This document shows, in pieces, positions 4,580 to 9,089 of a stretch of 36,393 nt of DNA. The position numbers and the translations under genes are program-made. Every line of letters starts with the position of its first letter. Positions within the stretch are counted from its first letter, which is position 1. The DNA comes from an uncultured Clostridia bacterium (GTDB lineage Bacteria; Bacillota; Clostridia; UBA1381), in contig CAJFVT010000087.1 in assembly GCA_904420525.1 (NCBI GenBank), forward strand, positions 1 to 36,393, written 5' to 3'. Under the pieces are notes generated by a model that saw nothing but the letters and a program-made list of their open reading frames with translations, made no database searches and was not told where the DNA came from.

Positions 4580-4639
4580 TTTATATACCTCATTCCTTTC
4601 CGTGCAGAAAGCACAAAATGTTTTTCACGCTTGTTATTA

Positions 4640-4700
4640 AAAAAGAAGGCATCTCAACGACACACCCGAATAAACGGGTATGTACATTGAGACGCCGTTG
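4640..4700 (-). terminator. Intrinsic terminator between dapL and gltB
   Basis: Minus strand GGCGTCTCAATGTACATACCCG-TTTATT-CGGGTGTGTCGTTGAGATGCC followed by TTCTTTTTT. Confidence 0.8.
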
Positions 4701-4737
4701 CCTCATTTGCCGGACGGCTGCGCCGTCCTGTTATATG

Positions 4738-5943
4738 TTAAAGTATAGCTGTGATCTTTTCCATCGCCTTTTCTGTGTTTTCCTTCGTTGAGAAAGCCGT
4801 AAATCTTATATAGCCCTCGCCGCTCGGTCCAAAGCCCGATCCGGGAGTGGTCACTACTCCGGCCTCATTCAACAGCTTATCAAAGAGATCCCATGACTTC
4901 ATGCCGTTTGGAGCCTTTGCCCATACATACGGTGAATTTACCCCTCCGTATACCTCAAGTCCCGCTTTTTCAAGCGCGGTCCTTATTATCCCGGCATTTC
5001 CCAGATAGTATTCTATATTCGCTCTGATCTGCTTCTGTCCCTCGTCCGAATACACCGCCTCGGCAGCCTTCTGGATCACATAAGGAACGCCGTTGAATTT
5101 CGTACACTGACGCCTGTTCCAAAGCCCGTTAAGACCAGTGCCGCCGATCTTAAGAGCCTTAGGCACTACCGTGTAAGCACAGCGTGTTCCGGTAAATCCG
5201 GCAGTCTTTGAAAAACTCCTGAACTCTATCGCTACCTCCTTAGCGCCCTCGACCTCGTATATAGAATGAGGAACATCCTCCTCGGTTATGAACGCCTCAT
5301 ACGCGCTGTCGTAAAGGATAACGCTTCCGTTCTCCCTGGCATAATCCACCCAGAGCTTCAGCTGATCCTTTGTCAATGTTTCTCCCGTAGGATTATTGGG
5401 GAAGCAAAGATAGATCATATCCACCTTTTCCTTCGGGAGCTCCGGCATAAAGCCGTTTTCCGCAGTACAGGGCATATAATACAGGTTAGACCAGCGCTCG
5501 CCGTCAAAATCGCCCGCTCTGCCGGCCATCGCGTTAGTATCCACATATACAGGATATACAGGATCACATACCGCGACCTTATTATCCGCGCCGAATATAT
5601 CTCCGATATTTCCGCAGTCGGATTTTGCACCGTCCGAAACGAATATCTCGTCCGGCTCTATCCCCAGTTCCGCATAGTCATGCTCCACTATCTTGTTTCT
5701 GAGGAAATCATAGCCCTGCTCAGGTCCGTAACCATGAAAGCCCTCCGGCGTTCCCATCTCGTCCACCGCCTTATGCATAGCCTCGATAACCGCGGGAACG
5801 AGCGGTCTTGTTACATCACCTATACCCATTCTTATGATCTCTCTGTCCGGGTTAGCCTCCTGAAACTCCGATACCTTTTTTGCGATCGTTGAAAAAAGAT
5901 AGCTGCCGGGCAGCTTTAAATAATTCTCGTTTATCTTTGCCAT
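4738..5943 (-). CDS. dapL: LL-diaminopimelate aminotransferase
   Basis: ORF protein [48 protein letters not shown]...; strong DapL family resemblance. Internal Met at 5943 preferred as start. Confidence 0.95.
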
Positions 5944-5972
5944 TTCTAAATTCTCCTCTGATAACATTATTT

Positions 5973-6093: not shown

Positions 6094-6948
6094 TCAAAGC
6101 GTGATCTCCCCCTCAAAAACAAATTCCGCGGGACCTGTCATATATACATTATTGTCCTCTCTGTCCCATTTGATGTGCAGCGTGCCGCCCCTCAGCTCCA
6201 GATCGGCCTCGCCTTCGACCAGACCGCAGAGCGTCGCGGCGACAAGCGTAGCGCAGGCGCCGGTACCGCAGGCAAGAGTCTCTCCCGCCCCTCTTTCCCA
6301 GACCCTCATTTTTATCCTGTCCCTGTCAATTATCTTGGCAAATTCAGTGTTTATCCTGTTCGGGAACATCATATGATTTTCAAATCCCGGGCCTGTTTTT
6401 TCTATGTCCAGCCCATCCACATCATCTATAAAGGTCACAGCATGTGGATTGCCCATGGAGACCCCGGTGATCCTCCATTCCTTTCCGTCCACATCAACGG
6501 GCATATCTACAAAACGGTCTCCCTCCGCATCGATCGGGATCTTTTTCGGAACAAGCTCCGGCGCGCCCATATTTACCCGCACCGCAGCCGTTTCACCCTG
6601 CTCATCCAGCGTAAGCTCCAGTGTTTTTATGCCTGCCAGCGTTTCAAGCGTAAAGACCGTCTTATCGGTAAGCCCCTTGTCATGCACATATTTGCCGACA
6701 CATCTCGATGCGTTGCCGCACATTTCCGCCTGAGTGCCGTCACTGTTGTACATATCCATCCTGAAATCTGCCTTGTCTGAAGGGCAAATGAGAACGAGTC
6801 CGTCCGAGCCGACCCCGAAATGCCTGTCAGAGATCCTGCGTGCGGTCTCATTCGCATTTTCTATTTTTTTCTCCATGCAGTTCACGTAAACATAATCATT
6901 TCCGGCGCCCTGCATCTTTGTAAATCTTATCGTCTGCATTTTTTTCAC
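6094..6948 (-). CDS. dapF: Diaminopimelate epimerase
   Basis: MKKMQTIRFTKMQGAGNDYVYVNC..., MCGNASRCVGKY and ACGTGACAT catalytic Cys motifs. Confidence 0.96.
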   Translation of the reverse strand: MKKMQTIRFTKMQGAGNDYVYVNCMEKKIENANETARRISDRHFGVGSDGLVLICPSDKADFRMDMYNSDGTQAEMCGNASRCVGKYVHDKGLTDKTVFTLETLAGIKTLELTLDEQGETAAVRVNMGAPELVPKKIPIDAEGDRFVDMPVDVDGKEWRITGVSMGNPHAVTFIDDVDGLDIEKTGPGFENHMMFPNRINTEFAKIIDRDRIKMRVWERGAGETLACGTGACATLVAATLCGLVEGEADLELRGGTLHIKWDREDNNVYMTGPAEFVFEGEITL

Positions 6949-6958
6949 TCCCGCATTT

Positions 6959-7483
6959 TTATATTTCCAGTATCAATCTTGCTGTATCTATGAATTTTGC
7001 TCCGGTATCCATGCTCCGTTTCTGTATAAACCTATGCGCCTGCTGCTCGCTCATATGGAACCGCTCCCTCAGGAGCAGCTTCGCCTGCTGTATTATCCTT
7101 GCCTCCTCCGGATCACGCGCTGCTCTCCCGCGCGCAGAGGAAACATTGCCGGTGAATACCTCCAGAGACGAGATCAGCTTCTGTCTGCTCACTGGCAAAG
7201 GTATTATAAATATATCCTCATTTTCTATATCGTGCAAGCGTTCAGGCTTCACTATCGAAACGAGCTTTGAACCGTCCGGAAGACTCTCAAAGATCTCATC
7301 AGCTATCATATCAGGAAGCTTATATCCCATGACCGCTACCGCGTCATCATAGTTCTCCATCCTTCGTATAAGCTCCGCGCCGCTCCGGCATATGACATTG
7401 TCTATCTCAAAACCGGCGCCTTCAAGCATCAGACGGACTTTATCCGCAGCGCTGTCATTTGAAAATGCCAATACAATACGCAT
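6959..7483 (-). CDS. ANTAR-domain RNA-binding response regulator (antiterminator type)
   Basis: C-terminal AKLLLRERFHMSEQQAHRFIQKRSMDTGAKFIDTARLIL matches the ANTAR helical domain; N-terminal receiver-like region. Confidence 0.9.
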   Translation of the reverse strand: MRIVLAFSNDSAADKVRLMLEGAGFEIDNVICRSGAELIRRMENYDDAVAVMGYKLPDMIADEIFESLPDGSKLVSIVKPERLHDIENEDIFIIPLPVSRQKLISSLEVFTGNVSSARGRAARDPEEARIIQQAKLLLRERFHMSEQQAHRFIQKRSMDTGAKFIDTARLILEI

Positions 7484-7578: not shown

Positions 7579-8910
7579 TTAATACTGCACTAAATATCTG
7601 TCAAGCTCCCATTTGCTAACAGTCCGCCTGTACTGATCATATTCAGCTTCTTTTTTAGCGATATAACTTTCCTTGAGCCTTGTACCCAGCAGCTCCTCCA
7701 CAAGCTCCGAATCCTTTGCTATCTGCAGAGCCTCGTTCAGACTTACCGGTATACGCTCTATGCCCAGCATCGTAAGATCGTTCTTTGAAAGCTCATTCAC
7801 GTTCATCCCTATGCTGGGCGGAAGCACTATGCTCTCATCCCTTATGCCCATAAGTCCCGCCTTCAGTATCGCCGCTATAGCAAGATACGGATTTGCCGTA
7901 GGATCCGGCGAACGGTACTCTATAGACGAGTTTTCCGGTATACGCGACTGTACCGCACGGATAAGCAGGCTCCTGTTGTTCTCAGACCACGATATATGAT
8001 ACGGCGCATCCGCTCCCGGTATAAATCTTTTATAGGAGTTTACCGTAGGGTTTGTAAGACACACTATCTCACGCGTATAATGAAGAAGTCCGGCTATAAA
8101 TCTATATGTCTCGTTCCGGAACTGTCTTTTGCCGGTATCATATGCGAATACATTCTCGCCGTCTTTTTCAAGATACATCGTCAGGTGCATGCCTGAGCCC
8201 CATTCATCAGCAAACGGCTTAGGCATAAACGTAGCATGCAGACCGTTGCGCTTTGCTATAGTCTTTACTACTGTTCTGAACGTTACGATCCTGTCCGCCG
8301 TTACGAGCGCGTCATCCGCCTTGAATACTATCTCGTGCTGACCGTGTGCCATCTCGTGATGCGATGCCTCTATAGTATACCCCATCTCTTCAAGTGTGAG
8401 ACATATATCACGCCGTACATTCTCACCGTTATCCAGAGGCGCCATATCAAAATAACTGCCTGAATCGTGCGTTTGCGTGGTCGGTCTGCCCTGTTCATCC
8501 GTGTTGAACAGGAAAAATTCTATCTCAGGGCCTATTTTGAGCTTATAGCCCATTTCCTCAGCTTCTTTTACCACCTTTTCTAAAACAAGCCTCGGATTAT
8601 ACTCCAACGGACGTCCGTCCGGAGTATACACATCACATATCAGCCTCGCCACCTTGCCGTTATGCGGACGCCACGGAAAAATCGCGAACGTACTCAGATC
8701 CGGATGAAGATACAGATCGCTTTCCTCAATATTGGCAAATCCATCTATCGCGGAGCCGTCAAATATACAGCGGTTTTCAAGAGCCTCCTCCAGTCTGTCC
8801 ACGGTTATAGCCATGTTTCTCATCTGTCCAAGCATATCTGTAAACTGAAGCCTGATAAATCTTACGTCCTCGTCCTCTACCCTTTTTAAAATCATCTCTT
8901 TCGGTGTCAT
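7579..8910 (-). CDS. glnA: Glutamine synthetase type I
   Basis: MTPKEMILKRVEDEDVRFIRLQFTDMLGQMRNMAI...FDGSAIDGFANIEESDLYLHPD; FMPKPFADEWGSGMH; YEYRSPDPTANPYLA-like motifs. Confidence 0.97.
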   Translation of the reverse strand: MTPKEMILKRVEDEDVRFIRLQFTDMLGQMRNMAITVDRLEEALENRCIFDGSAIDGFANIEESDLYLHPDLSTFAIFPWRPHNGKVARLICDVYTPDGRPLEYNPRLVLEKVVKEAEEMGYKLKIGPEIEFFLFNTDEQGRPTTQTHDSGSYFDMAPLDNGENVRRDICLTLEEMGYTIEASHHEMAHGQHEIVFKADDALVTADRIVTFRTVVKTIAKRNGLHATFMPKPFADEWGSGMHLTMYLEKDGENVFAYDTGKRQFRNETYRFIAGLLHYTREIVCLTNPTVNSYKRFIPGADAPYHISWSENNRSLLIRAVQSRIPENSSIEYRSPDPTANPYLAIAAILKAGLMGIRDESIVLPPSIGMNVNELSKNDLTMLGIERIPVSLNEALQIAKDSELVEELLGTRLKESYIAKKEAEYDQYRRTVSKWELDRYLVQY

Positions 8911-8969
8911 GTCAATAACCTCCCGTTATACTTGTGAGTCCTCTGACCGGGTCCACAATTAATTTTAGA

Positions 8970-9005
8970 AAATAAAAAAGGCACACGAAAAATAAGTGCG
9001 CCTTT
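8970..9005 (-). terminator. Intrinsic terminator inside the glnA 5' leader (candidate attenuator)
   Basis: Minus strand AAAGGCGCAC-TTATTTTTC-GTGTGCCTTT then TTTATTTT; 10-bp stem with one G-U. Confidence 0.85.
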
Positions 9006-9041
9006 GCAAAATCATCTCAAAGATCAGCTGAACTGCCGATC
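9002..9041 (-). promoter_or_regulatory. Candidate antiterminator hairpins upstream of glnA terminator
   Basis: Minus strand GATCGGC-AGTTCA-GCTGATC (7 bp, hexaloop), then CTTTG...CAAAG whose 3' arm overlaps the 5' arm of the terminator. Confidence 0.5.
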
Positions 9042-9060
9042 ACAGCTTCGATTCAATTTA

Positions 9061-9089
9061 ATTATACCACACATGAACATAATTTGCAA
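9061..9089 (-). promoter_or_regulatory. Sigma-A-type promoter for glnA
   Basis: Minus strand TTGCAA - 17 nt - TATAAT, about 150 nt upstream of the glnA ATG. Confidence 0.8.

Follow-up and report, generated by a model that had tools for sequence, protein, structure and literature searches.

A stretch of 36,393 nucleotides from an uncultured Clostridia bacterium (contig CAJFVT010000087.1; hereafter the window) was used for the analysis. On its - strand the genes and signals follow in the order pnp, pnp-end terminator, promoter, leader, glnA, ANTAR gene, dapF, aminotransferase and gltB. The features are as follows.

11335-9218, - strand: pnp
9208-9183, - strand: pnp-end terminator
9061-9089, - strand: sigma-70-type promoter, TTGCAA (9089-9084), 17 bp, TATAAT (9066-9061)
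9022-9041, - strand: inserted hairpin GATCGGC-AGTTCA-GCTGATC, clade-specific, stem kept and loop variable
8997-9008, - strand: ANTAR-type hexaloop hairpin TGC-[AAAGGC]-GCA (loop 9005-9000), a predicted antiterminator that excludes the terminator
8974-9005, - strand: intrinsic terminator AAAGGCGCAC/GTGTGCCTTT with T-tract at 8979-8974
7579-8910, - strand: glnA, type I glutamine synthetase, 443 aa (TIGR00653 455.7 bits, PF00120, PF03951)
6959-7483, - strand: ANTAR protein gene, 174 aa, with pseudo-receiver, low-confidence linker and ANTAR domain (PF03861), a putative antiterminator
6094-6948, - strand: dapF, diaminopimelate epimerase (PF01678), a conserved neighbour in a conserved gene order
4738-5967, - strand: class I/II aminotransferase (PF00155)
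4688-4705, - strand: second ANTAR-type hexaloop hairpin TGAGGC-[AACGGC]-GTCTCA in the gltB leader
4639-4696, - strand: terminator GGCGTCTCAA/TTGAGATGCC with T-tract, overlapping the second hexaloop
1-4579, - strand: gltB, glutamate synthase large subunit, running past the contig end (PF00310, PF04898, PF01645, PF01493)

The gene at 7483-6959 is the sole ANTAR match in the window's assembly (88% complete), and no GSIII glutamine synthetase was found in this assembly. A genus-mate of the window genome is Candidatus Ornithomonoglobus merdipullorum (G014, locus L128). The first-pass annotation, which had been made from the window alone, described a consensus promoter, an intrinsic terminator before glnA and an ANTAR-domain gene next downstream of glnA, and all three are borne out. 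The promoter lies at 9089-9061, and its 17-bp spacer is found in all 48 alignable glnA leaders of the window's family, which were collected and aligned on the start codon. The terminator lies at 9005-8974. In those family loci long enough to show it, an ANTAR gene follows glnA.

Comparison of the 48 glnA leaders revealed a motif, C[A A N G G Y]G, shared at the start of the terminator 5' arm in every leader; in the window it places the hexaloop AAAGGC within the 5' arm of the glnA terminator. C-1, G4, G5 and G+7 are invariant and A1 and A2 are each found in 47 of the 48 leaders, while the columns upstream of the hexaloop stem hold just 0.15-0.6 bits. The hexaloop stem is 89.6% paired, against 35-71% when slid, and none of 500 shuffles equalled it; shuffle tests take no account of relatedness, so that such counts lend support but are not to be read as probabilities. 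In the terminator stem 94.5% of pairs are kept, and seven of the ten pairs have changed on both sides. When three positions of the shared arm were tested for both alternative structures, at least two could pair in both structures in all 48 leaders and all three in 39, which is the signature of mutually exclusive structures. Folding energy alone gives no evidence, since the whole glnA leader is not unusually stable (folding z -0.80).

Two features of published ANTAR targets, a hexaloop with A at position 1 and G at position 4 (A1/G4) and a stem of at least 3 bp closing it, occur in both leaders of the window: the loops are AAAGGC (glnA) and AACGGC (gltB), and they are closed by no more than 3 bp in the glnA leader and by 6 bp in the gltB leader. 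A third, the overlap of the hairpin with an intrinsic terminator, is present in the glnA leader. A fourth, two tandem hexaloops with a short linker, is not shared by the family glnA leaders.

These results change the identity of the element that had been taken for the ANTAR site. The first-pass annotation had pointed to tandem hairpins, one at 9041-9022 (GATCGGC-AGTTCA-GCTGATC) and one a CTTTG/CAAAG helix, and had suggested that the recognition motif might be divergent, with G4 absent. Neither hairpin corresponds to the conserved element in the aligned family glnA leaders, and no divergent motif is needed because the overlooked loop AAAGGC fully satisfies A1/G4. The hairpin at 9041-9022 does exist, but as a recognition element it fails, its loop being variable and its occurrence confined to the closest relatives. 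The CTTTG/CAAAG helix loses two of its five pairs in locus L004 (GATTG/CAAGG) and is missing from leaders outside the window clade. The alignment of glnA leaders that had been proposed as a check gave covariation in the terminator and in the hexaloop hairpin; the CTTTG/CAAAG helix is not conserved.

Several glnA leaders depart from this pattern. Locus L012 (G002) keeps the glnA-ANTAR pair with a leader that has neither hexaloop nor terminator, an apparent loss. The glnA leaders of Caproiciproducens and relatives (L182, L185, L186, L187, L189 and L191) carry GACAAGGAGGTTC...ACCCTTGTTATTTT near +1, with a candidate divergent hexaloop, AAGGAG, overlapping a terminator. The possibility that some relatives encode a leader peptide from an ATG close to +1 was considered and rejected, as no such peptide is conserved (judged by eye).

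The position of the hexaloop relative to the promoter was analysed in the same 48 leaders. Loop position A1 starts 9-17 nt past the -10 box in 43 of them; in the five leaders of the window clade the distance from the -10 box to the loop is 53-55 nt because of the inserted hairpin. Transcription usually starts about 7 nt past the -10 box. With starts placed from promoter sequence in this way, the hexaloop 5' arm would lie at or near +1 in the 43 leaders, and there would consequently be no room for a second hexaloop hairpin (at least 12 nt) upstream. In these 43 leaders the first ~15 nt of the mRNA are thus predicted to make the hexaloop hairpin.

Searches for upstream A1/G4 hexaloops gave numbers at the level expected from shuffled sequence, both in the glnA leaders (2 against 2.9 expected) and in the other family leaders (2 against 2.1 expected). 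They were commoner in a set drawn mostly from other families of the class (4 of 16 against 1.1 expected). The test is able to find a second hexaloop, since it recovered a genuine dual one upstream of amtB in L273 (G095), GATGC[AACGAG]GCATC.

The inserted hairpin was not found in 43 of the 48 family glnA leaders. It has counterparts in L003, L004 and L009 only, and L005 has a different hairpin. Its stem is kept through compensating changes, with covariation in four species. Its loop in the nearest relatives reads AGUUCA, GAAAA, GGCGG or UUUU/UUUUUG, and A1 and G4 never occur together. In the window and in L003, L004 and L009 an insertion of about 42 nt between promoter and hexaloop (9053-9007 on the - strand of the window) consists of this free-loop hairpin flanked by invariant TTGAGATGATTTTGC.

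The inserted hairpin bears on the first alternative, a canonical dual-hairpin ANTAR attenuator in which it would serve as P1 with a divergent loop and P2 would overlap the terminator. The covarying 7-bp stem between promoter and P2 in the window clade fits this arrangement, and the amtB leader of L273 demonstrates that dual hexaloops do occur. We nevertheless regard it as unlikely: the inserted loop never combines A1 with G4 in relatives, 43 of the 48 leaders have no room for a P1, and the gltB leader of the window likewise has no upstream A1/G4 hexaloop.

A coiled-coil ANTAR type was also found beside a different glnA, in L237 (G012) and in the order-level loci L024-L028; in G012 the glnA that adjoins the coiled-coil ANTAR gene has a single-hexaloop leader some 5 kb upstream. 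The idea that a single hexaloop always accompanies loss of the coiled coil is weakened by G012, which combines a coiled-coil ANTAR protein with a single-hexaloop leader.

The conserved element is not confined to glnA. In the window, a hexaloop with an overlapping terminator occurs twice, before glnA and before gltB (hexaloop position 4699), against 0.025 expected from 200 dinucleotide shuffles. The gltB hexaloop and terminator (4639-4705, - strand) lie between the aminotransferase gene and gltB, with no obvious promoter of their own. Genus-wide, the simple pattern GCAANGGYG..CCNTTTT was little above control except at glnA, and a covariance model of the element (R1) was therefore used. R1 describes the terminator pairs only and leaves out the hexaloop stem; it was searched over 70 family genomes, and within the family it was trained on most of the leaders that it then recovers. 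Beyond glnA, its family matches precede gltB, the aspartate-ammonia ligase gene asnA and genes for GSIII glutamine synthetase (18 leaders retrieved), and likewise genes for aspartate aminotransferase (in L207 and L224), for a C26 peptidase and for an ATP-grasp protein of the circularly permuted kind. In distant families of a class-wide sample, matches were found before amtB, glnA, GSIII, gltB and C26 peptidase genes. The element was also matched before glnQ-like genes.

Analysis of 38 distinct non-training sites, at other genes or in other families, found the hexaloop stem to be 87.3% paired, with 40 both-side changes and none of 500 shuffles equal to it. The stem is conserved at these sites though it is absent from R1, the model behind most of them. 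We propose, on the comparative evidence, that the same switch before gltB, GSIII, asnA and other nitrogen genes forms a nitrogen-assimilation regulon.

Two of the matches concern genes of less certain function. In L197 and L205 (G085 and G051) the element precedes a circularly permuted ATP-grasp (DUF404/407-like) gene, which suggests a nitrogen-linked role for this enzyme. In L223 (G082) a weak match, which may be due to chance, lies upstream of a CTP synthase-like gene, whose product is a glutamine-using enzyme.

The distribution of the element was compared with that of the ANTAR gene. Within the family, 49 of 50 genomes with this ANTAR type have an R1 match at E <= 0.011, against 2 of 12 genomes without a detected ANTAR (G060 and G041), an association that is partly circular because R1 was trained there. 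The ANTAR gene of G060 is truncated where its contig stops, and the G041 assembly is 69% complete. Outside the family, ANTAR is encoded in 21 of the 25 genomes with a match against 122 of the 234 sampled class-wide, a difference with a probability of about 1 in 1000 by binomial arithmetic; this class-wide comparison is not circular.

The 174-aa ANTAR protein matches PF03861 with 48.2 bits (E 9e-13, cut-off 27.3). A profile search recovers Rv1626, EutV, NasR and AmiR; in a fold search, Rv1626, EutV (6ww6/6wsh) and AmiR rank with the top matches. In the AlphaFold2 model (mean pLDDT 84.5), residues up to 111, where a helix ends, adopt a receiver-like fold, residues 113-122 are unstructured (pLDDT < 50) and the ANTAR helices begin at residue 125, whereas EutV has a continuous coiled coil; the alignment is 6 residues shorter than EutV. 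Order-level relatives have the coiled-coil ANTAR type and the window's family has another sequence type. Among the RNA-contact residues of EutV, Glu160 and Met172 are kept, and Y164, N173, R175 and R177 are replaced by H, D, G and K. The phospho-acceptor aspartate of EutV (Asp54) and Rv1626 aligns to Gly53, a residue that hardly varies across the family. Switching by phosphorylation is for this reason unlikely, and the signal is probably contact with a protein or a ligand.

The association with ANTAR speaks against a second alternative, namely that the terminator is regulated otherwise, by a metabolite-binding RNA, by another RNA-binding protein or by start-site or NTP effects at the +1-proximal hairpin. 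In relatives the element lies so near +1 that initiation-linked mechanisms are conceivable, and the ANTAR protein is a putative partner. Against this, gathering and E-value searches of the leader with Rfam gave no family that reaches the cut-off and only implausible weak matches, a hairpin of 15 nt is smaller than any known ligand pocket would require, and loop signature, synteny and co-occurrence all indicate ANTAR; regulation of this other kind is very unlikely. A constitutive 5' stem-loop that stabilises the mRNA or terminates in part, and that owes its conservation to terminator constraints alone, is highly improbable. In its favour, the U-tract and the G+C stem show strong conservation, and the hexaloop shares its 3' arm and half of its loop with the terminator, so that terminator needs could account for some of its conservation. 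Against it, the nearly invariant bases C-1, A1 and A2 fall outside the predicted terminator stem, as does the hexaloop 5' arm, which covaries with the shared arm; terminator constraints do not readily account for this.

Overall, our analysis suggests as the best explanation, and one that we hold to be highly probable, a single-hexaloop ANTAR attenuator of glnA together with a nitrogen-assimilation regulon. The glnA leader would be a default-off transcription attenuator, in which the leader, once transcription has begun at the promoter, would by default fold into the intrinsic terminator as it emerges from RNA polymerase. The ANTAR protein encoded downstream of glnA would capture the hexaloop hairpin AANGGY (UGC-AAAGGC-GCA in the window), which uses the terminator's own 5' arm and, once captured, would block the terminator. 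Readthrough, presumably in response to a nitrogen signal, would result in transcription of glnA and of its own regulator, a positive autoregulation. This binding mode is proposed from published ANTAR work, in which the protein binds an A1/G4 hexaloop and so keeps the terminator from forming (PMC3369931, PMC8934654).

The first-pass proposal that the neighbouring ANTAR protein antiterminates glnA is thus well supported by the overlap of an A1/G4 hexaloop with the terminator, by synteny, by the other nitrogen genes and by ANTAR co-occurrence, and this protein very probably controls the glnA leader switch. We lean, with more reserve, towards a wider reading: a gut Clostridia family would possess an ANTAR class for whose nitrogen regulon one hexaloop, built from the first ~15 nt of the transcript, would suffice without a P1 or a phosphorylated coiled-coil dimer.

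ANTAR targets have been described as dual hexaloops with A at position 1 and G at position 4 (PMC3369931, PMC8934654), surveys of such targets required two hexaloops (PMC8164766) and EutV is reported to need both hairpins and dimerisation (Walshe 2022, PMC8934654). The same study redefined the minimal binding motif as one hexaloop and asks whether single sites function (PMC8934654). The compact set of natural single-hexaloop sites identified here, with the protein gene adjoining, makes that question directly testable. No report of single-hexaloop ANTAR attenuators was found in a literature search in which subscription papers, for example Stutz 2007, were beyond reach. The set also shows that a search model built on dual hairpins would overlook many targets. 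That ANTAR proteins control nitrogen genes, the one for glutamine synthetase among them, is an established theme (PMC3369931). NitR of Clostridium saccharobutylicum is a reported antiterminator of GS/GOGAT genes (PMC6316151, citing Stutz 2007), a report echoed for C. thermocellum (PMC4676874). This study proposes such control of glutamine and glutamate synthesis for a large group of uncultured gut Clostridia.

Compared with known systems, the locus appears to work like a published ANTAR system but fails the dual-hairpin feature. It resembles the EutV/eut leaders of Enterococcus faecalis in the A1/G4 hexaloop overlapping an intrinsic terminator and in a protein of REC-like and ANTAR domains with a matching fold. 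It differs in having one hexaloop, at the mRNA tip in most relatives, whereas eut leaders have two in tandem, both required. Unlike EutV, a coiled-coil dimer phosphorylated at Asp54, the window protein has Gly at that position and a linker that is unstructured in the model. In Clostridium saccharobutylicum nitR adjoins glnA. The window is like the NitR system in having an ANTAR gene by glnA; NitR is proposed to antiterminate GS/GOGAT under nitrogen limitation.

AmiR/amiE of Pseudomonas aeruginosa and NasR/nasF of Klebsiella are systems of ANTAR antitermination of nitrogen genes, as is predicted for the window, and AmiR shares with the window protein a pseudo-receiver and a His at the EutV Tyr164 position. 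NasR carries a NIT sensor domain, and AmiR is controlled by AmiC. Unlike the leaders described here, the AmiR and NasR targets are both dual hairpins, which were in the seed of the Ramesh 2012 model (PMC3369931). The predicted regulons of Ramesh 2012 (e.g. Desulfotomaculum; PMC3369931) were found with that dual-hairpin model, which single-hexaloop leaders would match poorly; like the regulon proposed here, they have elements before glutamine and glutamate synthases, ammonium transporters and PII genes.
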